NCBI GenBank assembly: GCA_945949045.1
Contig: CAMFDG010000001.1
Coordinates: forward strand, 62,001 to 126,000
Direction of reading: 5' to 3'
Source: an uncultured Lachnospiraceae bacterium
GTDB taxonomy: Bacteria > Bacillota > Clostridia > Lachnospirales > Lachnospiraceae
Length of the DNA stretch: 64,000 nt
In this document: positions 48,161 to 61,448 of the stretch, piece by piece
How the letters are laid out: each line of letters begins with the position of its first letter
How positions within the stretch are numbered: position 1 is the first letter of the stretch
Notes under the pieces: generated by a model
Told to the model about the DNA's origin: nothing
Databases searched by the model: none
The model's input: only the letters and a program-made list of their open reading frames with translations
Translations under genes and position numbers: made by a program

Positions 48161-48730
48161 CTACCTGTTACATAGCTTTATACATTCGGTCACAATTTCA
48201 TTCATTGGAATATCGAAATCCTCCGGCCTCCATTGATCCAGTATCTGAACCGAAAAACCTATCCCGATTTTATAGAGATTCCCGTGCCTGGCAAGATAGC
48301 GGTCATAAAAACCCCCTCCATAGCCAAGTCGAAATCCCTCTCTGGAAAATGCCACCCCGGGGACCAGCATTACACTATTCTCCTGATCCTGAAAGGCTTC
48401 TAAGGAATAAGATTCCGTATCCGGCTCCATCACGGAAAAGGCTCCGGGGCAAAGCATTTCTTTATGATCGATTCGGAAAAACTCCATCTCCCTGTCAAAG
48501 ACCCTGGGGTAATAGAGTCGTTTCCCATCCCCTGCCGCGGCTTCACAAAACGGCGTCAGATCCACCTCACTCTGGATGGCGGAATAAACAAGAATATGTT
48601 TCACAGAGGAATACCATGTTTCACGGAGCAGGTTTTCAGCGATCTGTCTGCTGAAACACTCTCTTTCCTCCGGGGAAACCGCATTCCTGACTTCTTTCAT
48701 GCGTTTACGAAGTTCTTGTTTGCTTTCCAT
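48161..48730 (-). CDS. 5-formyltetrahydrofolate cyclo-ligase
   Basis: A protein of 189 residues converting 5-formyl-THF to 5,10-methenyl-THF with ATP. Family marks are [15 protein letters not shown] at the start, [16 protein letters not shown], and [25 protein letters not shown], the glycine-rich substrate loop. I start at 48730 with TTGGAG before it; the frame extends further into the upstream gene without support. It overlaps the DUF896 gene by 26 bases. Its place between proB and proA is unusual in general but tight spacing shows co-transcription. Confidence 0.93.
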
Positions 48731-48929
48731 ATTTTTCTCCAAGATTCTCCACGCTGCCATCCTCATTTACCATATCAATATTGTTGAGCTGGCTTCTCAG
48801 ATTCGCTTTCACGGAAGCCACAAACTCCTTCCTCAGAAGCGCCTGCTCCGACATCTCTGCCTCCGTCAGCCCCTCTGCCTTGGATTTGCGGTATAATTCA
48901 TTAATGCGGTCAATTTTCTCCTGTGTCAT
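48705..48929 (-). CDS. DUF896 (YnzC family) protein
   Basis: A 74-residue protein of the YnzC/DUF896 family. The helical start TQEKIDRINELYRKSKAEGLTEAE and the following EQALLRKEFVASVKANLRSQL are diagnostic. The function is unknown. In Bacillus ynzC belongs to the SOS yneA operon next to lexA; here it is in the proB operon, overlapping the proB stop by one base (TGATG) and the folate gene by 26 bases. A yneA-like gene remains beside lexA, 46 kb away in this window. Confidence 0.9.
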   Translation of the reverse strand: MTQEKIDRINELYRKSKAEGLTEAEMSEQALLRKEFVASVKANLRSQLNNIDMVNEDGSVENLGEKYGKQTRTS

Positions 48930-49768
48930 CAGCCTAATGTCTCCATAATATATGTTGCAAGATTAAAATTTGGATTCGGATTTGCGGTAAAAAGGGTTCC
49001 TGTATAATCATCAGCAAAAATATCCGAAAGCACCCGGACGTCCTGCCCGTTGGTAATAATCATATCCGCGCCGGAAAAAGTAGCAATCTTTGCCGCAGTC
49101 AGCTTGGTTGCCATCCCGCCGGTGCCTACATCGCTTCCGGTCGATTCCTTGGCCATGCCGTATATATTTTCATTGATGGTATCTACCCGTTTTAAAAGCT
49201 TTGCCTGCGGATTGGTACGTGGATCATCGGTATAGAGTCCATCGATATCCGAGAGAAGAATTAAAAGGTCTGCGCCCACCATGGATGCAACCAATGCCGA
49301 CAAAGTATCGTTATCTCCAAACTGCATCTCGTAGGTGCTTACCGTATCGTTCTCATTTACCACCGGAATGATGCCCATATGAAACAGCTCCTCAAAGGTG
49401 TTCTTCGCATTCACCCGGGATACCGGATTGACCATGGTATTTTTCGTAAGAAGCACCTGCCCCGCAGTCTGGGAGTATTCTGAAAAAAGCTTCTGATATA
49501 CCATCATCAGCTTTGCCTGGCCCACAGCCGCGCAGGCCTGCTTGGCAGAGATCTCTCTGGGGCGCTCCGTTATACCGAGCGCTGCCCTGCCTACTGCGAT
49601 TGCGCCTGAGCTCACCAGACAGACATCCATTCCCTGATTGTGAAGGTCCGAAAGCTGCCGTACCAGATGCTCCATCTTAGAAAGATTCAGCCTTCCGGTT
49701 CCCTCATGGGTCAGGGAAGAGGAACCGATTTTTACCACAATTCTCTTGTATTTTAACTTATTATCCAT
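48929..49768 (-). CDS. proB: Glutamate 5-kinase ProB, short form
   Basis: A 279-residue ProB, which phosphorylates glutamate to open the proline pathway. The amino acid kinase fold is complete: KRIVVKIGSSSLTHEGTGR, CLVSSGAIAVGRA, VNENDTVSTYEMQFGDNDTLSA, LLSDIDGLY and GTGGMATKLTAAKIA. The C-terminal PUA domain of longer ProB enzymes is absent, as in many Clostridia; the feedback site in the kinase domain is kept. It is the first gene of a long operon (proB to ruvB at least) with a promoter at 49813-49841. Confidence 0.96.
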   Translation of the reverse strand: MDNKLKYKRIVVKIGSSSLTHEGTGRLNLSKMEHLVRQLSDLHNQGMDVCLVSSGAIAVGRAALGITERPREISAKQACAAVGQAKLMMVYQKLFSEYSQTAGQVLLTKNTMVNPVSRVNAKNTFEELFHMGIIPVVNENDTVSTYEMQFGDNDTLSALVASMVGADLLILLSDIDGLYTDDPRTNPQAKLLKRVDTINENIYGMAKESTGSDVGTGGMATKLTAAKIATFSGADMIITNGQDVRVLSDIFADDYTGTLFTANPNPNFNLATYIMETLG

Positions 49769-49812
49769 TTACAAAATCCCCGTAATTTTCATCTGTTTCA
49801 TTGCCAACAACT

Positions 49813-49841
49813 ACTTTACCATATCTTACGGGAAATATCAA
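49813..49841 (-). promoter_or_regulatory. SigA promoter of the proB operon
   Basis: On the minus strand TTGATA (49836-49841) and TAAAGT (49813-49818), 17 bases apart, just beyond the end of the lipid kinase gene. Confidence 0.75.
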
Positions 49842-49849
49842 AAAAAATG

Positions 49850-50818
49850 TTATCGTAAAAGCCTAAGCCGTCCCTTCAGGCAGTGAAACTCTGCTTTTCT
49901 GACGTCCCCGCAGTATTCCCCGTCCGCATGGAGCACCATGGGCTTATCCGATTCCAGTACCAGATTTTTTGCATTTGTCATTTCAAACCCGCGGATTCTC
50001 TCCTGCTTTGCGGCAACGAGAAAAGGAAGACAGAAAAAAGTCTTCCATTTGGGAATTCCGGAGGCACTTCCCACAGAGAGAAAACCATCGGTGGGCACTG
50101 CCGCCGGCGCCATAGGCACACCGCCCCCCTCCGTACGAAGATTCATCACCGCCGCAAAAATCATTTTGTGAAAGGATTTATCTGTATGGTCATCTCCCGT
50201 CATTGTCACCTCAGCCGTGTCCATGGTAAACAATGAGGCAACCGTCAAAATCAAATACGTAAGCTTTCCAAGATGAAGTGCATTCAGTACTTTTTTGATG
50301 CGGGAGTGCAGCGCCTTTTTACATACGATTGCGTCCAGGCCCACTCCTGCACTGATACAAAAAATACAGGGCTTTTCGCAGCCTGGCCAGCTCACAGTTC
50401 CCAGATCCATGGCAGGCGCAGGAATCCCGTCACGGATTTCCCGATCCATGCATTCCAAAATCATAGGAAGACTTTTTCTCGGATTTTTGGGAATCCATAG
50501 ATTTCTGGCAAAATCATTGCCGGATCCGCTGGGAATCACCCCAAGACGGACCCGGTCAAAATCCCGAATGCCATTCAAGACCTCGTTAACAGTCCCGTCA
50601 CCGCCCACCACCACAAGATATACCGCTTCCTTCAAAGCGCTGTCATCGGCTGCAGTCAGCTGCCTGGCGAGGACAGTGGCGTGATGCTCATACTCCGTAA
50701 AGAAAGCCTCATATGGAATCTTTTGCTCCTCAAGCATATGTTTTATTTTCTTCCAAAGGCGGGCCGTCCTCCCGGTTCCGGCGCCCTGATTCACGATAAA
50801 GTACAAAGCAAGTCTCAT
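49850..50818 (-). CDS. Diacylglycerol kinase-family lipid kinase
   Basis: A protein of 322 residues of the DagK/YegS/BmrU group. The nucleotide-binding motif VVGGDGTVNEVLNG is at 71-84, with FIVNQGAGTGR at the N-terminus and PSGSGNDFARNLW after it; the C-terminal beta domain ends in the usual HADGEYCGD. It phosphorylates a lipid such as diacylglycerol, feeding phosphatidate synthesis; sphingolipid-type kinases are the alternative. The ATG at 50818 has GAGGAG before it. It follows the BMP lipoprotein gene with a one-base gap, so it is the last gene of the sensor cassette. Confidence 0.9.
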   Translation of the reverse strand: MRLALYFIVNQGAGTGRTARLWKKIKHMLEEQKIPYEAFFTEYEHHATVLARQLTAADDSALKEAVYLVVVGGDGTVNEVLNGIRDFDRVRLGVIPSGSGNDFARNLWIPKNPRKSLPMILECMDREIRDGIPAPAMDLGTVSWPGCEKPCIFCISAGVGLDAIVCKKALHSRIKKVLNALHLGKLTYLILTVASLFTMDTAEVTMTGDDHTDKSFHKMIFAAVMNLRTEGGGVPMAPAAVPTDGFLSVGSASGIPKWKTFFCLPFLVAAKQERIRGFEMTNAKNLVLESDKPMVLHADGEYCGDVRKAEFHCLKGRLRLLR

Positions 50819-50819
50819 G

Positions 50820-52028
50820 TTACTCCTCAACCCGAATTACATCATCCAAAATATAGTGAAAAGTAGGTGCCGAGCTGTTCTCATTTTCGTGGTATTCCTC
50901 ATGCAGATCAATCGTATCCTCGGAATCCAGCGAATCGACACCGGTATAATCTCCCTGAAAGACATGGACCTTATTTTTCTGAAAAGCATCCACCAGCTTC
51001 TCTACCTGGTTCCTGGTCCCCTCTGCGGCAACAAAATCATTGATTTCCAGCATTTCTACCCAGCCGCCCTCAAATCCGGCTCCTGCATCATTTCCATTGA
51101 TGGTTCCCTTAACACGCTTCTCGATCGTTTTTTTATCCAAAACCGCCTGCACCGCTTCTTTTACATAGGGATCCCAGTTGATCTTGGAGCCGGTCAGGTA
51201 AGTGGTCGGGGCTATATCCCGCATACTTTCATTGTAGCTTACAAAAAAAACATTTTGGGATCGATCCGTTTCCTCGCAGGCGGACGCCGGCCCGGTAGTA
51301 TCTGAATGCTGGGAAATGATCACGCAGCCCTCACTGATCAGTTCCTTTGCACATTCCTTTTCCAGATGATAGTCTCCCCAGGTGTTTGTATATTTTACAG
51401 TCATTACCGCCTCCGGAGCCACCGAACGAACCCCCAGCAGAAAAGAGGTATAGCCGGAAATTACCTCCGCATAGGGATAGGCCGCCACGTAACCAACCCT
51501 GGCCTGATCCTTTGTGATTTTCCCATCGTCAATCAGTTCCCTGAGCTTCATGCCGGCAGCAACCCCGGACACATACCTTCCCTCGTAAATTCTTCCCATA
51601 AAGGTATGATAATTGCTGAGATAAGGTTCTTCATTCGCGTTGTCACAGGTAGCCTGGCAAAACTGCACCTCGGGATGTTCTTTCGCATAAGCCTTCGTAC
51701 TCTCCCCATAGCCATAGCTGGTGGCAAAAATCAATTTACACCCTTCTTCCACCAGTGCCTGCAGTGCGCCCTCTGCCTGATCCTCCGGGACGTTAAATTT
51801 CGCAATTGTCGTCACCCGTTCGCCATATTCCTTTTCAACGGCCTGCTGAGCCTTATAAAAATTATTGGTATATCCCGTACTGGTATCTCCCACGTAGACA
51901 AAACCAACCTTGATGGAGATGTCCTCCTGCCTGCCATGGATCAGACAGCTTGCCACTGACAAAACCAAAATCAAAGTCACGGCACCAAGCAATGTCATTC
52001 CGTAATTCCGTATTTGATCTTTCTTCAT
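50820..52028 (-). CDS. BMP family (PnrA-like) substrate-binding lipoprotein
   Basis: A 402-residue lipoprotein. The signal ends in the lipobox VAS-C28, so the mature protein is tethered outside the membrane. The rest is the BMP fold: KVGFVYVGDTSTGYTNNFYKAQQ, IFATSYGYGESTKAYAKEHPEVQF, GVAAGMKL, KITKDQARVGYVAAYPY, TNTWGDYHLEKECAKELI and ISQHSDTTGPA. BMP proteins of known function bind purine nucleosides for ABC importers. No permease or ATPase gene is nearby. It follows the HD-GYP sensor by two bases and precedes the lipid kinase, so it is likely a partner of that sensor. Confidence 0.9.
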   Translation of the reverse strand: MKKDQIRNYGMTLLGAVTLILVLSVASCLIHGRQEDISIKVGFVYVGDTSTGYTNNFYKAQQAVEKEYGERVTTIAKFNVPEDQAEGALQALVEEGCKLIFATSYGYGESTKAYAKEHPEVQFCQATCDNANEEPYLSNYHTFMGRIYEGRYVSGVAAGMKLRELIDDGKITKDQARVGYVAAYPYAEVISGYTSFLLGVRSVAPEAVMTVKYTNTWGDYHLEKECAKELISEGCVIISQHSDTTGPASACEETDRSQNVFFVSYNESMRDIAPTTYLTGSKINWDPYVKEAVQAVLDKKTIEKRVKGTINGNDAGAGFEGGWVEMLEINDFVAAEGTRNQVEKLVDAFQKNKVHVFQGDYTGVDSLDSEDTIDLHEEYHENENSSAPTFHYILDDVIRVEE

Positions 52029-52030
52029 TC

Positions 52031-55000
52031 TTATCGCTCCTTATTGCCAGAGGCACCATAAATCTGCTCTACATCAATCGTTCCATCCTCAATCAAAGAA
52101 AGAAGAATATCCACAAGCTTTGGATCAAACTGCGTACCCCGTCCCTTTTTCAATTCCTCTAACACGAAATCAAAATCAAGCTTTTTCCGATAAACACGGT
52201 TTGCAGTCATGGCATCGAAGGCATCCGCAATCCCGATAATACGGGCATTAAGAGGGATTTCCTCTCCCTTAAGTCCATGTACGTAACCGCGTCCGTCGTA
52301 CCGCTCATGATGATACAATGCGCCATCGGTTACATTGTCGATCCATGTAAAATTCTTCAGGATCTCAGCACCGATCACCACATGGGACTTCATGGTATCA
52401 TACTCCTCATCCGTCAGCCGGTCCGGCTTATTCAGCACATGATCCGGAATTCCGATTTTGCCGATATCATGAAGCATGGCAATCTTTTTAAGATCATCAC
52501 ACTGCTCCGTGGTGTATCCGATCCTCTCAGCAATTTTTACCGCGTATTCAGAAACCCGGACAGAATGTTTACTGGTATTTACATCCTTGGCATCCACAGC
52601 CTGCGCAATGGTCATAATGGTTTCATTTCCCATCTGCAGCTGCTTTTTTGTCAGCTCCAGTTCCATTTTCTGCATCTTCAGTGTCTTTTGAAGCTGCGTA
52701 CGGAAAAACAACCATGTGAGATAGGAAATCATCATCACAGCAACCATACCAAGATAGAATTTAAACCACCAGTGATCATAAAATTCCTTATCCTTAATAA
52801 TCTGATAAGTATTCTCCGCAAATACGCTGTTGTTCCTGTCATCCAGCACCGCAACCCGCAGCGTATATTCTCCGGCAGGAAGATTCGTATAGATAAAGGA
52901 GGTCATTTCGCTCTGCTTCAACACATAGTCCTCCTTGTCAAAGCCCTCCAGACGAACGCGGATGCTCGGGTTATTGATGGAATAATTTACGATCTCCGGA
53001 TTAATTTCCATTCGCTTTGCACCACTGGAAATATGGATTGGCTCACCCTTTTCAATGGATACACTCTCTCCATCTACCACCACAGACTTTAACAGCATAC
53101 GATAGGAGCGCTCCGTCACGTCATACTGGTTCAGATTCAGACTTACCACACCCCGGTCACCGGAAAGGTACAGATTCGACGATCCAGCCATATAATTCCA
53201 GGAATTTGGAGTCAGTTCCATACGAAGTCCTCTGGAGGAATCCAAAAGTTCATAGGATACTTCACTCCCCGCAAGAAGCTCCTCCTTTTCCACCACATAA
53301 ATACCCGCGGAACACAATACAAACAGCTTGCCACTTCCGTTATCTACCAGATCATAATTGTTGAAATAGGGAAACTGATCCAGCAGGCGAATCTTTCCGT
53401 CCTCATCCATGTAGCATATTCCGTTTCCCGTTACGATAAACAGTCCGTTCTGATCTGCATCCTCCACCATGCGCATAATGATTTCCGAGCTGAGTCCATC
53501 CTTCTTTTGTAAGGTTTCCGTAACCTTTCCCTCTTTGATCACCGCGATTCCATTGCCATCGGATCCTGCAAAAAGGGTTCCATCCTTCCCTTCATATAAA
53601 GAAAGAATTCTCGGATTTGCAAGCCCATCGGAAAAACCAATCGTATTGATCACCTTCTGATTTTTAATAAAGGTGAGACCGGAATCTCCCGCCGCCACAA
53701 TTGTGCCATCCGACTGTTCAATTGCAGACCGGAATTTCTCACCGATTGCTCCGTTCGCGCTGTCGTAGATTCTGGTTTTTCCACCAGGGGTAACCTCCCA
53801 GACGCCGCGGTCAGAGGTACAGATCCACAAATGCTTTGAGGAATCCACCATCAGACAGCGAATTCGCACGCCCTCCAGCTGATCTGCAAGCCTTGAGGAA
53901 ACCTGTCCGCTTCCGTCACCTTTCACCACATTGAGTCCGCTATCCGTACCAATATACAGATTTCCCTGCCATCTGGTAACGGTATTGACCACCTGCTCAG
54001 CCAGAGAGGCTTCCTTATAAAGCTCAGAAAAAGCAGAGGGACACAGGTGCATCAGTCCAAGTCTGGAAGAAGTAAACCAAAGATTTCCCTGATAATCCCT
54101 TATCATATGATCGATGGAGCTGTTAAAGCTGCCGATATCCAAAGGACAGTATTCCATCAGATAATTAAGATAGCCGGCGCCATTGTCCGCGCAGACAAAG
54201 ATCGTTCCATCCTCTGTCTCACTGATGGAATTGATACCGGCAAGAGCTTCACAGGAAATATTCGCCACCAGCTCAGGTTTCTCACCCTGAAGCTCATAAA
54301 CTTCAATCTGGTTGGAGGAGGTTCCGAGAAACAGTCTTCCGGAACTGTCAAAGCTGCAGCAATTGTAGGTTTCCCCTTCCCTCTCTACCGTCCTGTGGAG
54401 CACAATTTCCGTCCCCTGCAGCAGATAGAAATCCCCCTGATTGGTGACAACGGCAATGTTTTGATCCAGCCCTGCACTGATACTGTCCGCATAAACCACT
54501 TCAGGAATTTCTGATATCACCTTTAAACCACTGTTTAATGACATGACAACCAAACAATCCGTAGTTCCCACATAGTACATACCATCGGAGCTTTCTGTGA
54601 TACACCGGACCGAATTCGAGGGAAGCCCATCTTCCCGATTTACCACATTGGATATCTCCTCATTAATACAGATTGAGAGTCCGTCATCATTCGTGCCGAT
54701 CCAAAGGCGTCCTGCCTCATCCGTATACATACAGTTAACGGTTTTAACAGATTCAAAATCCTTCATCCACTGAAACTGGCTGCCGTTGTAGCGATACAGA
54801 CCGCCATAGGTTCCAATCCATAAAATACCATCCTTGGTCTGGGCAATGTCATTGGCTGCTCCACCCGGCAGACCATTTTCCCCGTTATAGATTGTCTGTA
54901 CATATCGTTTAAAATCATAGTGCTCCAGTTCCCAAGAGGAACCGGTTTTCCCGTAAGCTGTGACCTGTGCCGGGAAAAGAGTGACGGAAACACATAAGAG

Positions 55001-55561
55001 AAGGAAAAAAGCAAGGATCGTCCTCCGATGCCGCAACAGAGAAAGTCCCCAGAACAGAAGCAGCATCGTAATCACTTTATCCAGAAATTCCAGAAAAACC
55101 TGCCCTATGATACCGCTGATTGTCCGGTTCCACCCCGCCTCTGTGAGAAAGGCAGCCACAGAATCTCCCCAGATATTGCCGATCTCTCCTCCGGCAAGAA
55201 ACAGATTCAGTGGTGCCGAGACAATAACAGACAGAATCGTCACAAGAAACGCAACAGACAGTGTACCAAAGGCATCCTTAAAAAATCCTTTTTTGGCGCA
55301 AACTCCCACCGTAATGCCAATCACCAGGCTGGTCAATGCATAGCAGATGGGTCCCTGAAACAAAACTGCGTAGAGAACATTGACAGACACGCCCACAATC
55401 GAGCCACAGACCGGACCGAAGGCGTACGCCATGACTGCCGTACCCAGAGAATCCAGCCAAAAGGGCAGAGCCAGACTTTCTGCAATCAGCTTGCCGGACA
55501 AATTAATAAGAATACAAATAATAGAAAACAGGTAGATTTGTATACTCTTCTTTCGTATCAT
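52031..55561 (-). CDS. ECF-S-like membrane domain, two propellers and HD-GYP sensor
   Basis: A 1176-residue sensor. Residues 8-200 hold about six membrane helices whose sequence (LPFWLDSLGTAVMAYAFGP, PICYALTSLVIGITVGVCAKK) resembles ECF transporter S components. Residues 215-790 form fourteen propeller repeats (WIGT, LWIGTNDDGL, LFLGTS, LWFTSS, LYIGTDSGL and so on), enough for two seven-bladed propellers. A Y_Y_Y-like domain follows, then a helix at 935-953, a coiled coil and HD-GYP (979-1170): H999, HD 1031-1032, HH 1084-1085, with GRGYV where GYP is usual. HD-GYP hydrolyses cyclic di-GMP. The same sensor plan occurs in Bacteroides hybrid two-component proteins, but with a kinase output. BMP and lipid kinase genes follow. 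Confidence 0.9.
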   Translation of the reverse strand: MIRKKSIQIYLFSIICILINLSGKLIAESLALPFWLDSLGTAVMAYAFGPVCGSIVGVSVNVLYAVLFQGPICYALTSLVIGITVGVCAKKGFFKDAFGTLSVAFLVTILSVIVSAPLNLFLAGGEIGNIWGDSVAAFLTEAGWNRTISGIIGQVFLEFLDKVITMLLLFWGLSLLRHRRTILAFFLLLCVSVTLFPAQVTAYGKTGSSWELEHYDFKRYVQTIYNGENGLPGGAANDIAQTKDGILWIGTYGGLYRYNGSQFQWMKDFESVKTVNCMYTDEAGRLWIGTNDDGLSICINEEISNVVNREDGLPSNSVRCITESSDGMYYVGTTDCLVVMSLNSGLKVISEIPEVVYADSISAGLDQNIAVVTNQGDFYLLQGTEIVLHRTVEREGETYNCCSFDSSGRLFLGTSSNQIEVYELQGEKPELVANISCEALAGINSISETEDGTIFVCADNGAGYLNYLMEYCPLDIGSFNSSIDHMIRDYQGNLWFTSSRLGLMHLCPSAFSELYKEASLAEQVVNTVTRWQGNLYIGTDSGLNVVKGDGSGQVSSRLADQLEGVRIRCLMVDSSKHLWICTSDRGVWEVTPGGKTRIYDSANGAIGEKFRSAIEQSDGTIVAAGDSGLTFIKNQKVINTIGFSDGLANPRILSLYEGKDGTLFAGSDGNGIAVIKEGKVTETLQKKDGLSSEIIMRMVEDADQNGLFIVTGNGICYMDEDGKIRLLDQFPYFNNYDLVDNGSGKLFVLCSAGIYVVEKEELLAGSEVSYELLDSSRGLRMELTPNSWNYMAGSSNLYLSGDRGVVSLNLNQYDVTERSYRMLLKSVVVDGESVSIEKGEPIHISSGAKRMEINPEIVNYSINNPSIRVRLEGFDKEDYVLKQSEMTSFIYTNLPAGEYTLRVAVLDDRNNSVFAENTYQIIKDKEFYDHWWFKFYLGMVAVMMISYLTWLFFRTQLQKTLKMQKMELELTKKQLQMGNETIMTIAQAVDAKDVNTSKHSVRVSEYAVKIAERIGYTTEQCDDLKKIAMLHDIGKIGIPDHVLNKPDRLTDEEYDTMKSHVVIGAEILKNFTWIDNVTDGALYHHERYDGRGYVHGLKGEEIPLNARIIGIADAFDAMTANRVYRKKLDFDFVLEELKKGRGTQFDPKLVDILLSLIEDGTIDVEQIYGASGNKER

Positions 55562-55604
55562 TTATTTATCCTCATGTAAGAATCAAACGATAAACTTCAA
55601 TCTT

Positions 55605-55633
55605 ATTTTATCAGTCTTTCTTCCTTTTTACAA
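55605..55633 (-). promoter_or_regulatory. Promoter of the HD-GYP/BMP/lipid kinase cassette
   Basis: On the minus strand TTGTAA (55628-55633) and TAAAAT (55605-55610), 17 bases apart. It separates the cassette from apbE, so the three genes form an independent unit. Confidence 0.7.
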
Positions 55634-55653
55634 CTACCCAAAAGAACAGTATG

Positions 55654-56739
55654 TTATTTCCCATCCAGAATTCTTAACTGTATATCTTTGCCCTCATCGA
55701 ACCCCGAACTCCAATGGAACGCGCCATCGTCCGTGAAGAACAAAGCTTCTACACCTTCGGTTTTTTCAATCAATTCCATTCCCTGCTCTAATCCCAAAGC
55801 AAAGCAGGCGGTACTTAATGCATCTCCGTCCATGGAGCTTTTACTGATGATGGTCACCTGTTCCAGGTGATTATCCACCGGATAACCGGTTTCTGTGTCG
55901 AGAATATGATGATAGAGTTTCCCCTCCACCCGATAGTAACGCTCGTAAATTCCCGATGTCACAACAGAGGCATCCTTCACGGAAAGGGATGCCATGGCTG
56001 TTCCGGTATCGGCAAAGGGTTTCTGAATACCAATGGTATAATTGTCTCCCGTTTGCTTTGGCCCCAGCGTCAGCACATTTCCACCGAGGCTGATCACACC
56101 CTCGGTAATCTTCTCTTTCGTCAGATACTCCCGCATTTGATCCGCAATAAATCCCTTCGCAATGCCCCCAACATCCAGCTTGGCTTCCGGGTCCGTCAGT
56201 CGGACCTGATTCCCTTTAATTTCGATATTATGGTAGTCCACATGGGAAAGCGCACGCGCTATATCTCCCTGCTTTGGCAGAACCGAAGGGTCCGTTTCAT
56301 TATCTTTCGACGGAAGGTTCTCTGCGATTTCAGAAATATTCCAAAGATCCGACAGCCCTCCGATGGTCACATCAAATTTTCCCTGACTGATATCACCATA
56401 TCCTATGGCATCCGTGAGAAGTTCGATGGTATCATCGCTTACGGTAACAAACTTCCCCCCGGCTGCATTGATCCTGGAAATCTCACTGTCCTTTATGGTG
56501 TTGGAGAATTTTTCCTCATAGTCCTTCGCCATGGTAAAGCATGCATCAATGTAGGAAATGTCATCTGTTCCGTAAAGCGTGATCGAAATAATGGTATCAA
56601 AGTAGAAGCCGTTCTTCGTAACCTTTTTCTGCTCTGTGCCGCAGCCGGAAAACAGGCAGCTTATCCCTATTACCAAAATTAAGAATACTGCGGTATGAAT
56701 ATGAATTTTATCATTTGAATGCCTTGCGTATATTGTCAT
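55654..56739 (-). CDS. apbE: FAD:protein FMN transferase (ApbE)
   Basis: A lipoprotein of 361 residues that covalently attaches FMN from FAD to a threonine in targets such as RnfG and RnfD. The signal ends in FSGC. The catalytic domain shows DTIISITLYGT, GKFDVTIGGLSDLW, LDVGGIAKGFIADQM, VISLGGNVLTLG and the late GDALSTACFALG, all typical. I start at 56739, GGGAAGG before it. It lies after the unknown membrane protein and downstream of rnfB, so its likely clients are encoded next door. Its own promoter is not evident. Confidence 0.93.
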   Translation of the reverse strand: MTIYARHSNDKIHIHTAVFLILVIGISCLFSGCGTEQKKVTKNGFYFDTIISITLYGTDDISYIDACFTMAKDYEEKFSNTIKDSEISRINAAGGKFVTVSDDTIELLTDAIGYGDISQGKFDVTIGGLSDLWNISEIAENLPSKDNETDPSVLPKQGDIARALSHVDYHNIEIKGNQVRLTDPEAKLDVGGIAKGFIADQMREYLTKEKITEGVISLGGNVLTLGPKQTGDNYTIGIQKPFADTGTAMASLSVKDASVVTSGIYERYYRVEGKLYHHILDTETGYPVDNHLEQVTIISKSSMDGDALSTACFALGLEQGMELIEKTEGVEALFFTDDGAFHWSSGFDEGKDIQLRILDGK

Positions 56740-56756
56740 GGTTTGGAACCTTCCCA

Positions 56757-57617
56757 TTATTTCTTAGGCAGTAATTTGGAAACCTTCGGCATTTTTACAT
56801 TTACCGGAATGCCTGTCACCAGCTTAAATATCCATGTAAAAGCAAACAACACGCAGATCGGAATTGCACAGGTCGTGACGATCATTACTGCAAATGCCTC
56901 GATCATCCGATTTAATGCATCTTTCCATTCTTCCGTTTTGACACTGACATTATCTGATATTTTGTCTACACTTTCTTTCACATTTTCCTCAACTTCAGAA
57001 AACCAACCAGACACCTTATCCTGAAAAGAGGTTTTATCCTGTATTGCTGCATCCTCTTCGGAAGAAGCCTCAGACGTAGTCAATTCTGTTTCCGATATGA
57101 TGTCATCCACAGCTGCACTCTCCTCAAAGGTTTTATTGATCAGCTGAGTTGCCCCAACACTTACCGGTACAAGAGCCCACATCAAAAATCCCAGTACAAA
57201 TAGCTTCAGAGCCAGTCCATTTAACATACTCTTCCGGTTTTTCAGCATCTGTCCAGCCGCAAATAACAGACAGCCAATGGGTATGAGAATTTTAAAAGCT
57301 GCAAATCCGGTAAGGGGCAGCAGATATTTTTCTAAAACAATTGCCACATAGACGATCACCATATAGCCGGCCAAATCAATCAGCTTGTCCGCAATGGGAG
57401 ACAATGCCTCCCCCGGAACTGCCGCTGCAGCCGTAGAAAGCACCGCCGCCGTAGTCGTCATCCCCAGCGCCTGACCCTTTAGATTCTCCAACTGTTCTGT
57501 ACTCTTCGAATAGTTCTCTATATTGTTGGCCGCCCTCGAAATTCCAAAGCAGGAAATCACAGCAAGCAGCAGAAACGCGACTGCTATTATCGTAGATTTT
57601 ATATTTATGTTTTTCAT
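56757..57617 (-). CDS. Hypothetical membrane protein near the Rnf genes
   Basis: I do not recognise this protein. From the start at 57617 (GGAGGAG before it) it has about 286 residues: a signal or anchor helix (about 8-27), a short coiled region, four further hydrophobic helices (about 75-160 and 245-270) and an acidic, Ser/Glu-rich middle (ETELTTSEASSEED) followed by an amphipathic helix region (WFSEVEENVKESVDKISDN). The last 20 residues are basic. It lies between the rnfB terminator and apbE, 17 bases from apbE, so it may be translated with it. A link to Rnf or flavinylation is only suggested by position. Confidence 0.8.
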   Translation of the reverse strand: MKNINIKSTIIAVAFLLLAVISCFGISRAANNIENYSKSTEQLENLKGQALGMTTTAAVLSTAAAAVPGEALSPIADKLIDLAGYMVIVYVAIVLEKYLLPLTGFAAFKILIPIGCLLFAAGQMLKNRKSMLNGLALKLFVLGFLMWALVPVSVGATQLINKTFEESAAVDDIISETELTTSEASSEEDAAIQDKTSFQDKVSGWFSEVEENVKESVDKISDNVSVKTEEWKDALNRMIEAFAVMIVTTCAIPICVLFAFTWIFKLVTGIPVNVKMPKVSKLLPKK

Positions 57618-57699
57618 ACCACTCTCTCCTCCTGAACATTCACTCATTCATAACCACCTTCGGAAAATGAGCCGGCAGTTTCTCTTGGATGTGTGCATC

Positions 57700-57730
57700 A
57701 AAAACAGGCAGAGCCGCAAAGCCCTGCCTG
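57700..57730 (-). terminator. Terminator after rnfB
   Basis: On the minus strand CAGGCAGGGC pairs with GCTCTGCCTG (one G-T pair) around a six-base loop, followed by TTTTTG. It closes the rnf operon, possibly with readthrough into the next genes. Confidence 0.75.
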
Positions 57731-57741
57731 CCTATCGTTTT

Positions 57742-58530
57742 TTAAAGTATAATTTTCTTCGGACACTTCTCCGCGCAGATACCACATCCACTGCACTTTT
57801 CCTGATCAATGTAAGCCACATTGTCAATGACATGAATCGCATCCGACGGGCAGTTCTTCTCGCACAGATGACAGCCGATACATCCAACGGAGCAGGCATT
57901 CATCACATCTTTGCCCTTGTCCTTGGAGCTGCACTGTACCAGATGCATTGCCTCATAAGGAACCAGCTCAATCAAATGCTTCGGACATACAGCCACGCAT
58001 TTGCCGCAGGCCTTACAGGTCTTTGGATCCACCTTTGCAATTCCATCTACGATGTGAATAGAATCAAATGGACAGGCTTTCACACAGCTGCCATAACCGA
58101 GACAGCCGAAATTACAGCTCTTGGGCCCACCATTTGGAACAAAGGCCATAGCGGCACAATCCTCCACGCCTGTATACTCATAATCCTGCTTTGCCTTCTC
58201 GCAGGTTCCGGCACATTTGACGAAGGCTACTTTCTTCACACTTGCACCGGCAGAAACTCCCATAATCTCGCCCACCTTGGCAGCTACCGGATCACCGCCC
58301 ACCGGACATTGTCCCACAGGCGCTTCTCCCTTTGCGATGGCGGCAGCAAGCCCGGAGCAGCCGGCGTAACCACAGCCGCCACAGTTATTTCCCGGAAGAA
58401 CCCCAAGAATTGCCTCCTCACGGGGATCTACTTCCACCTTGAATTTCTCACCGGAGATTCCGAGGAAAAATCCAAGAATAATTCCCACACAGCCCACCAC
58501 AAGGGCTGCAGCAATAATTCCAGTAATCAT
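57742..58530 (-). CDS. rnfB: Rnf complex subunit RnfB (iron-sulfur protein)
   Basis: A 262-residue RnfB, the ferredoxin-docking subunit. The N-terminus has one membrane helix (about 3-25), a GCGYAGC-type cluster domain (CGGCGYAGCSGLA), then several four-cysteine 4Fe-4S motifs: CNFGCLGYGSCVKACP, CKACGKCVAVCP, CIGCHLCEKNCP and CSGCGICAEKCP. It passes electrons from reduced ferredoxin into the Rnf complex. It is the last rnf gene, followed by a terminator. The number of clusters is typical of Clostridia. Confidence 0.96.
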   Translation of the reverse strand: MITGIIAAALVVGCVGIILGFFLGISGEKFKVEVDPREEAILGVLPGNNCGGCGYAGCSGLAAAIAKGEAPVGQCPVGGDPVAAKVGEIMGVSAGASVKKVAFVKCAGTCEKAKQDYEYTGVEDCAAMAFVPNGGPKSCNFGCLGYGSCVKACPFDSIHIVDGIAKVDPKTCKACGKCVAVCPKHLIELVPYEAMHLVQCSSKDKGKDVMNACSVGCIGCHLCEKNCPSDAIHVIDNVAYIDQEKCSGCGICAEKCPKKIIL

Positions 58531-58543
58531 ACGTCATTTCCTC

Positions 58544-59149
58544 CTAAATCATTCCTGAGAATCCCATGAAGGCAATAGACATCAGGCAGGCAGTAACCAG
58601 AACGATCGCTGTACCCTGAAATGTCTTCGGGATGTCATTATACTCAATTTTCTCACGGATACCGGCCATCAGCACGATTGCGATAAAGAAGCCGACAGCG
58701 GTAGAAAATCCGTAAACCACACTCTCCAGCAGATTGTATTCATAGGTGACACAGTTAAGAGCCACACCGAGAACCGCGCAGTTTGTCGTGATCAGCGGAA
58801 GATAAACACCCAGTGATTTGTAAAGAGCCGGCATCTTCTTCTTTAAGAACATCTCAACAAACTGAACCAATGCTGCGATCACAAGAATAAATACGATTGT
58901 CTTTAAATAGGTCAGATCAATTCCCTTGCTTAACAGAAATGGATTTGCAAGAACAAATTTATAGATCAGTCCGGTAATGAAGGAAGAAATCGTAATAACG
59001 AAAATGACCGCGCCACCCATTCCGGCAGCCGTCTCCGTCTTCTTGGATACCCCAAGGAAAGGACAGATACCAAGGAACTGACTTAATACGACGTTGTTCA
59101 CGATTGCAGATCCTACTGCAATCAGCATTAATGAAGCTAATGTACTCAT
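58544..59149 (-). CDS. rnfA: Rnf complex subunit RnfA
   Basis: A 201-residue integral membrane subunit with six helices. NNVVLSQFLGICPFLGVSKK carries the conserved cysteine that holds an iron-sulfur cluster shared with RnfE inside the membrane. The later CAVLGVALN provides the second cysteine. RnfA and RnfE are related and packed face to face, moving electrons across the membrane. It is 13 bases downstream of rnfE and 13 bases before rnfB. Confidence 0.96.
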   Translation of the reverse strand: MSTLASLMLIAVGSAIVNNVVLSQFLGICPFLGVSKKTETAAGMGGAVIFVITISSFITGLIYKFVLANPFLLSKGIDLTYLKTIVFILVIAALVQFVEMFLKKKMPALYKSLGVYLPLITTNCAVLGVALNCVTYEYNLLESVVYGFSTAVGFFIAIVLMAGIREKIEYNDIPKTFQGTAIVLVTACLMSIAFMGFSGMI

Positions 59150-59162
59150 GTCTTACCCCTCC

Positions 59163-59894
59163 TTATTCCTGCTTTGCACTGTCAGCAGTCTTTCCCGCTG
59201 CAGCACTCTTTCCGGTACACATTGCAGACTGACCACAGTGTGCACAGTCACCGGACAGGCAGCCTGCCGGCTCTGCAAGAGGCTTGCCCTTGGCAGCCAT
59301 CTTCTTGCGGATGATATTCATACCCGCAACAAGAAAAGCCAATACAAGGAATGCACCCGGAGCCATGATAAAGATGGTAATCGGGGTAAAGCCTTCGATT
59401 GCTGATAAGAACGGCATATTAAAGAAAGTTCCTGCACCCAGAAGCTCACGGATCAGTCCAATGATGGTAAGTCCGATGGTAAAACCAAGCCCCATACCAA
59501 TTCCGTCGAATATGGACTCCACCGGACCATTCTTAGATGCATAGCTTTCCGCACGACCTAAGATGATACAGTTTACAACGATCAGCGGAATATACACACC
59601 AAGTGCCTTTGACAGACTTGGCAGATATGCTGCCATCAAAAACTGAACCACCGTTACAAGGGATGCAACGATGACAATATAAGCCGGCATACGCACACCA
59701 TTTGGGATCACCTTACGGAACAGGGAAATCAGAAGGTTGGAGCAGATCAGCACCACCATGGTAGATAAGCCCATGCCCAGTCCATTGATTGCAGAAGAAG
59801 TAACCGCAAGGGTCGGACACATACCAAGCATCAGTACGAAGGTCGGGTTTTCCTTAATGACACCATTGTATAAACGTTCTGTATATTTGTTCAT
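59163..59894 (-). CDS. rnfE: Rnf complex subunit RnfE, with cysteine-rich tail
   Basis: A 243-residue membrane subunit related to RnfA. NPTFVLMLGMCPTLAVTSSA and NCIILGRAESYASKNG carry the membrane cluster cysteines, and about six helices fill residues 20-195. An unusual tail follows the last helix: C212, C217, C220 and C226 in the segment GCLSGDCAHCGQSAMC, which looks like an extra metal or cluster site in the cytoplasm or at the surface, then a low-complexity Ala/Lys end. Its ATG overlaps the rnfG stop by one base. The tail is not part of the core family. Confidence 0.94.
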   Translation of the reverse strand: MNKYTERLYNGVIKENPTFVLMLGMCPTLAVTSSAINGLGMGLSTMVVLICSNLLISLFRKVIPNGVRMPAYIVIVASLVTVVQFLMAAYLPSLSKALGVYIPLIVVNCIILGRAESYASKNGPVESIFDGIGMGLGFTIGLTIIGLIRELLGAGTFFNMPFLSAIEGFTPITIFIMAPGAFLVLAFLVAGMNIIRKKMAAKGKPLAEPAGCLSGDCAHCGQSAMCTGKSAAAGKTADSAKQE

Positions 59895-60499
59895 TACTGA
59901 GCACCTCCTAACGCATTCTGGAAGTAATATAAAGCTGCGTTGCAGCCGTTGGCCATCGCTTTGGAGGTAATGGTGGAACCGGTAATTGCCTCAATCTGGT
60001 CATCAGAGGACGGCGTCTGTTTGACAACGCTGAATTTGTCAACCTTTTTGTTCTGGAACTGGCTGTAGAATTCCTCTTCCTCAGCCTTCATACCAAGACC
60101 TGGAGTCTCACCGATATCGGTAATGGAATAACCGTTGACAGTGCCATCATTCATAATTCCAACGGAAAAAGTAATACTGCCCTGGCTTCCGTCCTTAGCC
60201 GTAACCGTAATGACATAACCCAAAGCATTTCCGCTCTTATCAACAGCGGTCTCCACATCATCAATGGTATCACTGTATCCGGCATCGGCAACCATCTTGT
60301 TTGCCTCATCCTTATCATATTCCTGCGGGGTAAAATCCTCCGCATCCGCAAATACCGCCTGATAGGCCTCTCTGGTAGCCTGTGCATTTGCCTCATCGAT
60401 GGGCTTCTTGGTAATTCCGTATACCACACCGAGAATCAGTCCCAGAACCAGTGTAAAGGCAGTTAAGATCAAAGCGTCATGTACAATCTGTTTATTCAT
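59894..60499 (-). CDS. rnfG: Rnf complex subunit RnfG (covalent FMN)
   Basis: A 201-residue subunit with one N-terminal membrane helix (about 9-28) and an external FMN-binding domain. The flavinylation motif is EAITGSTITSKAM near residues 170-182, where the threonine after Gly-Ser receives FMN from ApbE; the usual motif is SGATxT, so Ala is replaced by Ser here. LGYVITVTAKDG and DIGETPGLGMKAEEEEF are typical of the domain. It overlaps rnfD by eight bases. Confidence 0.94.
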   Translation of the reverse strand: MNKQIVHDALILTAFTLVLGLILGVVYGITKKPIDEANAQATREAYQAVFADAEDFTPQEYDKDEANKMVADAGYSDTIDDVETAVDKSGNALGYVITVTAKDGSQGSITFSVGIMNDGTVNGYSITDIGETPGLGMKAEEEEFYSQFQNKKVDKFSVVKQTPSSDDQIEAITGSTITSKAMANGCNAALYYFQNALGGAQ

Positions 60500-61448
60500 T
60501 CTTCTTTGCCTCCTTTACAACACCAAATGCTCTCGGCACGGTAATCTTCTCAATGATCGGTACAAGAAGGTTGCTTAAGATAATAGCAAAAGAAACACCC
60601 TCGGCATTGGCACCGAAGCAGCGGAAAATACCGGTCAGAAGTCCACAGCAGATACCGAAAATGATCTGACCCATGGGAGTCACCGGAGATGTCACATAGT
60701 CCGTCGCCATAAAGAAGGCGCCAAGCATCAGACCTCCGCCGCAAAGCTGTGCAACCACATAGGTCACGTCAAATCTCTGTGCCCCGAACACGAACATAAA
60801 CAGTGCAAAGGTAACAATGTAGGATGCCGGAATCCGAAGATTGATGACTCCTAAAAGGATCAGAATAATTGCACCGATCAGAATCGCGATCACGGATGTC
60901 TCACCGATGGTACCCGAAATTTTACCGGTCAGCATATCCATTACATTCACAGAGGACAGTCCCTCATTCCTGATCATGCCAAGAGGCGTCGCTCCGGAAT
61001 ATGCCTCATATCTGGAGGCATTGAAATTCGTCATATCTGCAGCAAAGGCAATCAGAAGGAAGCAGCGGCCTCCTAAAGCCGGGTTCATGAAGTTCTGACC
61101 CAGACCTCCAAAAAGCATCTTGACGATCACAATGGAAAATACACCACCGATCACTGCCTCCCACCAGGGAAGGGATACCGGCAGGTTTAATGCAAGCAAA
61201 AGTCCTGTAACTACGGCACTTAAATCCGGAAGGGAATTCTTTTTATGTACAATCTTGTCAAATACCCACTCGGAAACCACACAGCTTGCAATGGTTACTA
61301 AAATTAACATCAGAGCCCGTAAACCAAAATTCCAGATACCGAAAAGACTGGCAGGAAGCAGTGCAATAATCACATATAACATGATTCTGCTTGTGGAATC
61401 CTTGGCACGAACATGCGGTGAAGATGAAACCTGATATTTCTCACTCAC
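60492..61448 (-). CDS. rnfD: Rnf complex subunit RnfD (covalent FMN)
   Basis: A 318-residue membrane subunit with about nine or ten helices. SSSPHVRAKDSTSRIMLYVIIAL starts it, GGLGQNFMNPALGGRCFL is a family signature, and the flavinylation site is SGATPLGMIR with the threonine that takes FMN. It is thought to be the ion-pumping unit. It lies 18 bases after rnfC and overlaps rnfG. ApbE is encoded downstream. Confidence 0.95.
   Translation of the reverse strand: MSEKYQVSSSPHVRAKDSTSRIMLYVIIALLPASLFGIWNFGLRALMLILVTIASCVVSEWVFDKIVHKKNSLPDLSAVVTGLLLALNLPVSLPWWEAVIGGVFSIVIVKMLFGGLGQNFMNPALGGRCFLLIAFAADMTNFNASRYEAYSGATPLGMIRNEGLSSVNVMDMLTGKISGTIGETSVIAILIGAIILILLGVINLRIPASYIVTFALFMFVFGAQRFDVTYVVAQLCGGGLMLGAFFMATDYVTSPVTPMGQIIFGICCGLLTGIFRCFGANAEGVSFAIILSNLLVPIIEKITVPRAFGVVKEAKKNE

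Follow-up and report, generated by a model that had tools for sequence, protein, structure and literature searches.

A conserved gene pair of a BMP-family binding protein and an ECF-S/propeller/HD-GYP sensor with a predicted role in cyclic di-GMP signalling

Binding proteins of the BMP family usually act as lipoproteins of ATP-binding cassette (ABC) importers. In a 64,000-nucleotide stretch of an uncultured Lachnospiraceae bacterium (assembly GCA_945949045.1, contig CAMFDG010000001.1, positions 62,001 to 126,000; the window hereafter), a BMP gene lies between the gene of a large membrane sensor and that of a lipid kinase, and no ABC gene was found among the open reading frames (ORFs) adjoining the three. 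What does a binding protein do in such a place? The initial annotation of the window had likewise noted the missing ABC permease and ATPase, and proposed that the protein goes with signalling and not with import. We found that the sensor and BMP genes are a conserved two-gene unit, and that the BMP gene tracks the sensor and not an importer in neighbourhood counts, as had been proposed. The pair and its parts are as follows.

52031..55561, minus strand: sensor of 1176 amino acids, with an ECF-S-like membrane domain, two-component-regulator propeller repeats, a Y_Y_Y domain, a transmembrane helix and an HD-GYP domain (ORF, Pfam, NCBIfam, orthologues).
55037..55528, minus strand: ECF-S-like domain, sensor residues 12-175, kin of standalone ECF S components (NCBIfam ECF_S_CD3073, shared residues).
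52799..54874, minus strand: propeller repeats from residue 230 onwards and a Y_Y_Y domain at 864-921, both predicted to lie on the outer side of the membrane (Pfam Reg_prop, Y_Y_Y).
52703..52759, minus strand: hydrophobic helix, sensor residues 935-953, joining the outer part to the output (hydropathy script).
52115..52606, minus strand: HD-GYP (HD_5) domain, sensor residues 986-1149 (Pfam, alignments).
50820..52028, minus strand: BMP-family binding protein of 402 amino acids (Pfam Bmp, PDB relatives 3s99 and 6pi5, AtzT contacts).
51909..52028, minus strand: N-terminal hydrophobic leader of the BMP protein, 40 amino acids, containing VASC, probably a membrane anchor (hydropathy and leader comparison).

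The sensor matched Reg_prop (E-value 2.6e-28), Y_Y_Y (2.4e-8) and HD_5 (1.8e-37) in Pfam, and six hydrophobic stretches were found within residues 7-197 and one at 935-953. The second gene matched Bmp (PF02608) with an E-value of 5.6e-28 and 98.2 bits, against a gathering score of 24.1. Two bases separate the genes.

The sensor was used as a query in 392 genomes of the order, and the 40 top-ranking places, not counting that of the window itself, were examined. Sixteen of them encode close orthologues, defined by a propeller part at least 40% identical. The BMP gene directly follows the sensor in all 14 that have sequence beyond the sensor; the other two run off the contig, and a second contig from the genome of one of these (L136) carries an HD-GYP end followed by a BMP gene. 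Two further loci, L031 and L032, added through a BMP search of 40 relatives and not through the sensor search, are likewise paired, giving 16 of 16 usable order-wide loci. At the 24 places with more distant propeller sensors, no BMP match was detected by ORF or tblastn (0/24; the L120 contig ends at the sensor). A named-genome scan, for which the input halves of 19 sensors were aligned as the query, gave 550 confirmed matches, of which the best 80 by sensor similarity were examined. A BMP gene lies directly 3' of the sensor in 75 of the 75 loci with sequence beyond the sensor, 70 detected by ORF and five more by tblastn, some of them frameshifted or cut; the other five loci end at the sensor. 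In 36 of 63 relatives from this set, the end of the sensor gene and the start of the BMP gene share 4 bases. Many of the loci examined are contigs of metagenome-assembled genomes (MAGs), and the two sets share at least one contig (L103 and L233, with the same leader). The pair occurs in Lachnospiraceae, Oscillospiraceae, Christensenellaceae, Treponema (isolate T. bryantii B25, L226) and one Flexilinea MAG, and many carriers come from the rumen or gut according to their record titles.

The reciprocal search with the BMP protein in the 392 genomes gave the same picture. All 16 best matches (E-value at most 3.3e-115, window included) adjoin this type of sensor; after a gap, the matches resume at 6.5e-90, and 15 of the 15 examined among these 42 further places adjoin an ABC ATPase. 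BMP orthologues standing with an ABC importer and without the sensor, which the initial annotation had named as the finding that would speak against it, did not occur; the paired group adjoins the sensor wherever the place is visible. In a tree of 68 BMP proteins, the 35 sensor-paired rows group together (one change, support 72), with the importer-linked proteins on other branches. This tree included three ABC rows in wrong reading frames with very long branches (L150, L154, L157), which are absent from a later comparison that took in 84 paired BMP proteins. The 35 paired rows also form one group in the sensor tree (support 75), and several of its starred clades match the BMP tree. Sensor and BMP distances are correlated with a Mantel r of 0.76 over 82 pairs, the highest of 2000 permutations reaching 0.27. 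The pairing is far beyond chance, and the binding-protein gene is conserved beside a receptor, not beside an importer.

The N-terminus of the paired BMP proteins also differs from that of importer proteins. Among 63 relatives from the 80-locus set, with leader starts assigned by a scripted rule, the leader has 36 residues in 49 and a hydrophobic 19-mer in all 63, and a lipobox is found in nine with a loose pattern and three with a strict one. The loose pattern occurs in three of the first 17 paired proteins, window included. In comparison, 18 of 21 ABC-linked BMP proteins, the three wrong-frame rows being left out, have a lipobox, mostly with a long linker, and seven of nine distinct rows of chemoreceptor-linked ones fit the loose pattern. 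The paired protein is probably held by a short N-terminal hydrophobic anchor, mostly without a lipobox. The usual family role, a lipoprotein of an ABC importer, does not describe it, with no ABC gene beside it and the lipobox rare in its relatives. A remnant of an importer left without its permease was rejected as an explanation on the grounds of the reciprocal sensor pairing and of an anchor form unlike that of importer BMP proteins. It is also quite unlikely that the protein feeds an unlinked importer while the sensor merely monitors the traffic. BMP relatives with ABC importers do share the pocket residues described below, and with a completeness of 80% the assembly may lack an importer that the genome has. 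However, no two-domain ATPase of the BMP type was seen in the assembly, where the best match is 40% over one domain in a 292-amino-acid frame; the paired proteins lack the lipobox-and-linker form of importer BMP proteins; and the sensor pairing is exclusive in the places examined.

The nearest PDB relatives of the window BMP protein are 3s99 (5e-35) and AtzT (6pi5, 1.4e-30). AtzT binds guanine with a KD of 0.11 uM and adenine with 2.5 uM, contacting its ligand through Tyr45, Ser97, Phe98, Glu165, Trp194, Asn218 and Asn220, and adenine was modelled in the 3s99 structure (PMC6834077). In the alignment, these positions correspond to Y53, S104, Y105, E188, W217, H241 and D243 of the window protein; the numbering offset from AtzT was set by hand, and H241 and D243 were aligned through 3s99. 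Y53, E188, W217, H241 and D243 are kept in 80 to 81 of 84 paired BMP proteins. In the branch of the window, the predicted purine-type pocket residues match those of 3s99 and AtzT, and the ligand of the paired protein is probably a purine base or nucleoside.

For the output domain, we aligned 55 sensors, in which the HD pair, the second H, the HHExxDG motif and a later D are invariant. The window sensor has HD and HHExxDGxGY, with the P of GYP replaced by V. The output is predicted to be a c-di-GMP-type (cyclic di-GMP) enzyme with intact catalytic residues, and since the source genome has 17 GGDEF matches over the cut-off, c-di-GMP is likely made there. HD-GYP proteins can act on substrates besides c-di-GMP, and the P position varies among the paired sensors (V, A, C, M, K, I), so the domain might be regulatory or use another substrate. 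We regard this as unlikely in view of the invariant residues and the plentiful GGDEF genes. One locus (L228:5989-11362) has the same ECF-S/propeller input and a BMP gene, with HisKA, HATPase and receiver domains in place of HD-GYP. Because the BMP gene is kept with a swapped output, the BMP protein would belong to the input half.

Taken together, we are fairly confident that the pair encodes a two-gene receptor in which an anchored BMP co-receptor for a purine- or nucleoside-like ligand regulates c-di-GMP breakdown through the sensor. For its ligand, the physical docking, the phosphodiesterase activity and the direction of the effect, we infer the following. The BMP protein would be held at the outer face of the membrane by its short N-terminal helix and bind a small ligand outside, probably a purine base or nucleoside. 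In its loaded or its empty state, the protein would be the ligand-binding partner of the sensor input half, formed by the ECF-S-like domain and the outer propeller. The signal would then cross the helix at residues 935-953 and alter the HD-GYP domain, by which c-di-GMP breakdown may be raised or lowered.

Several observations weigh against this receptor model. The Ser/aromatic pair of the pocket, S104/Y105, is deleted in 51 of the 84 paired BMP proteins, so that the deletion branch, to which L206 belongs, may bind another ligand. BMP proteins linked to ABC importers or chemoreceptors keep nearly the same pocket residues, and the residues therefore speak for the ligand class only. The tree correlation owes part of its strength to shared descent, the support values of the paired groups (72 and 75) are moderate, and the output swap was seen in a single MAG locus. 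The description of the window protein as a lipoprotein in the initial annotation is doubtful; VASC in its leader fits a lipobox and allows a lipoprotein in the source species, whereas in most relatives the anchor is hydrophobic and has no lipobox. Finally, the BMP protein may not be the sole input, because 15 of 99 loci encode an orphan SBP_bac_3-type protein immediately before the sensor, in the order SBP_bac_3, sensor, BMP (L173, L176, L181, L183, L184, L185, L191, L192, L200, L201, L208, L210, L216, L220 and L234). These proteins are 51-65% identical to that of L192, with 26-127 bases between the alignment ends of SBP_bac_3 protein and sensor; the family was assigned from Pfam runs on L192 and L234. 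In one branch, the sensor seems to come with two binding proteins.

The ECF-S-like domain raises the question of whether the sensor itself binds the ligand. Residues 12-175 matched ECF_S_CD3073 (NF045596) with an E-value of 8.1e-19 and 67.9 bits, under the cut-off of 180, and by this match the domain is related to the CD3073 ECF S component but is not a member. Among the 24 distant propeller-sensor loci, an ECF-S match was found in seven and none in 17. Ten positions (N20, P33, D37, G40, T41, N61, G86, G125, D161 and K162) are common to both kinds of protein: each is found in at least 91 of the 95 sensors and in between 21 and 29 of the 29 standalone S components. Five others, N129, W131, G132, G153 and F159, are nearly invariant in the sensors and not in the standalone S components, which suggests that the domain of the sensor has changed.

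Thirty-eight loci with standalone ECF-S kin were picked by hand, of which 36 gave an ECF-S gene; the neighbour counts that follow are raw, without a background rate. A nucleoside phosphorylase of the uridine/purine type adjoins the gene in six of the 14 kin nearer to the sensor domain, and two of these six also have a BMP gene. The initial guess of a nucleoside ligand thereby gains two supporting lines, the pocket residues and this kinship with ECF-S genes that have nucleoside-phosphorylase neighbours. The other 22 kin have a nucleoside hydrolase in 18 cases, nine of which also have a RaSEA-like radical SAM protein; the hydrolase, ECF-S and radical SAM genes lie in a row in L293, L294, L296, L297, L300, L301 and L306-L308. 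Because a nucleoside hydrolase and a RaSEA-like protein adjoin the ECF-S kin, these loci probably serve queuosine-precursor salvage, although their radical SAM proteins match NCBIfam RaSEA under the cut-off. The name QueL presumably applies to these radical SAM proteins. QueT/QrtT ECF transporters and nucleoside hydrolases have been named in the context of queuosine salvage (PMC11130926). In L295:6688-8830 (with EcfT/EcfA) and L299:115-2925, genes for a BMP protein, a nucleoside phosphorylase and ECF-S stand side by side; a binding protein serving an ECF transporter is possible there. ECF-S-like stretches also occur in HD-GYP proteins of about 700 amino acids (L121:9846-16056, L123:9869-15683 and L278). 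In L121 and L123 a separate propeller histidine kinase adjoins the ECF-S/HD-GYP protein, perhaps a split version of the window sensor.

These kin bear on a ligand relay, in which the ECF-S domain would still bind the ligand and receive it from the BMP protein, the receptor being a former transport S component turned sensor. The ten positions common to sensors and standalone S components argue for it, as does the joint presence of a BMP gene, a nucleoside phosphorylase gene and sensor-like ECF-S in L295 and L299. However, the shared residues may be structural, the five sensor-specific positions set the domain apart, the BMP proteins of the two loci belong to a far branch (24-27% identical to an ABC-linked BMP protein), and this context is seen in only two of the 14 loci, both from one genus. 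We therefore hold the relay to be possible but tentative. The same caution applies to its fuller form, a speculative scheme in which the BMP protein would hand a purine or nucleoside to the ECF-S domain and the signal would pass through propeller and helix to the HD-GYP domain or kinase without any transport, the SBP_bac_3 protein being an added input in one branch and the unit travelling between phyla.

The lipid kinase was the third member of the proposed cassette. Two more rows describe the surroundings of the pair.

49850..50818, minus strand: YegS/DagK-type lipid kinase, a genome neighbour that is not in the conserved unit (Pfam, neighbourhood counts).
55654-56757: ApbE-family protein, upstream of the sensor (Pfam).

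All three genes were found on the minus strand with the sizes and the 2-base and 1-base spacing initially reported. One base lies between the BMP stop and the kinase ATG at 50818; the longest kinase ORF begins at a TTG at 50830. The kinase matched DAGK_cat (1e-27) and YegS_C. The short gaps suggest co-transcription of the three genes, but the single promoter that had been assigned to them was not borne out: the putative match at 55633-55605 agrees in nine of 12 positions, 13 promoter-like sites were counted in the region against 11.6 expected by chance, and the scan of the operon region for promoters and terminators was not above chance. A search for RNA families in 48500-57700 of the window gave only one sub-threshold match and no family near the operon, and a scan of eight of the 80 loci gave only a Clostridiales-1 RNA, in L227.

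A neighbourhood check did not find the kinase conserved beside the pair. No kinase homologue occurs in the 16 usable order-wide loci, of which L032 ends 134 bases after the BMP gene, while 1.6 kb or more follows that gene in the other 15. The flanks of 96 relatives, some of them short, gave a single kinase relative no more than 4 kb from the pair; it is 28% identical, 3.3 kb away and on the opposite strand. Kinase relatives with 40-63% identity were found in 16 other genomes of the genus, and neither sensor nor BMP was found within 1.5 kb on each side of them; in two pair carriers (G013 and G020) they lie on other contigs than the pair. The kinase adjoins apbE in G010 and G012 and has proB near it in G017 and G012, so that three of the 16 genomes show either neighbour. 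The order in the window is proB, kinase, BMP, sensor, apbE (Pfam), and because the kinase stands near apbE or proB without the pair elsewhere, the pair looks inserted beside resident genes. A conserved three-gene cassette was rejected on these counts and neighbourhoods. The 1-base spacing in the source genome is what speaks for a cassette in which lipid phosphorylation would be a further output, and we give that idea almost no credence given the empty order-wide loci, the single distant relative and the kinases beside apbE or proB without the pair. Close to the ApbE gene, 57742-61448 holds what we take to be an Rnf-like cluster.

Other BMP proteins with signalling neighbours were seen during the survey. 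A different group has a chemoreceptor (sCache_3_3, MCPsignal) as its partner in nine of nine loci (L041:7613-13491, in contig G000:C2 of the source genome, L042, L044, L045, L047, L048, L049, L050 and L052), and its nine proteins form a separate group in the 68-protein tree with a support of 100. In the source genome, an SBP_bac_3-GGDEF-EAL protein is encoded upstream of the chemoreceptor-BMP pair. The locus L051:206-7199 (G003:C57) encodes in a row a receiver, two tandem BMP proteins, a hybrid histidine kinase and a dCache/HD-GYP/receiver protein, and is read from its domains as another BMP-signalling cluster. Proteins of about 640 amino acids with a BMP-like C-terminal half occur in several genomes of the genus (L053:8329-10909, L054, L057 and L058) and adjoin a metallophosphoesterase-like protein of 196 amino acids, as judged by Pfam on L053.

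With the sensor-BMP pair, many bacteria of the gut and rumen can probably detect an external nutrient that resembles a purine or nucleoside. To our knowledge, it is mainly through polyamine sensing in Proteobacteria that a route from a binding protein to c-di-GMP signalling has been described. If our reading is right, the pair would be a widespread clostridial, and also treponemal, counterpart of that route, it would show ECF-S domains used as sensors, and it would link purine availability in the gut and rumen to decisions on biofilm or motility. The predicted ligand class, the conserved partner and the natural output swap would make ligand and mechanism directly testable. In searches of the open-licence PMC library, no account of the pair was recognised, and nothing was found on a purine-sensor domain. 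A review of c-di-GMP sensing from 2022 describes SBP_bac_3 as the sole domain of the PBP clan to have been studied, and a term search of its main text gave no hit for propeller, nucleoside, purine and ECF (PMC8846402). HD-GYP and Reg_prop both occur in PMC6637768 and PMC8463545.

Compared with the base binders AtzT and 3s99 of the BMP/PnrA family, the window protein shares the family and the Tyr, Ser, aromatic, Glu and Trp residues of the pocket, with His/Asp as in 3s99. AtzT is thought to serve uptake, whereas the paired proteins have a sensor partner, no adjoining permease and mostly no lipobox. The ECF-S-like domain resembles the S components of ECF transporters (CD3073-like, QueT/QrtT kin) in its membrane-domain similarity and shared residues, but it is fused to a propeller and HD-GYP, scores below the cut-off and has no EcfT/EcfA seen beside the sensor. 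With other propeller HD-GYP or kinase sensors, the window sensor shares the Reg_prop repeats and cytoplasmic output; those at the 24 loci mostly lack an ECF-S match and in no case have a BMP partner. The closest parallel in logic is NspS-MbaA (Vibrio cholerae; Sinorhizobium meliloti), which consists of a polyamine-binding protein and a GGDEF-EAL receptor. Both systems join a binding protein of transporter ancestry to a membrane c-di-GMP enzyme in signalling. In Pfam, however, the window pair consists of Bmp and Reg_prop/HD_5 without GGDEF or EAL, and because its proteins are of other families, the pair is not an NspS-MbaA member. It is set apart by a BMP-family partner that is anchored, an ECF-S and propeller input, an HD-GYP output and mostly clostridial hosts.

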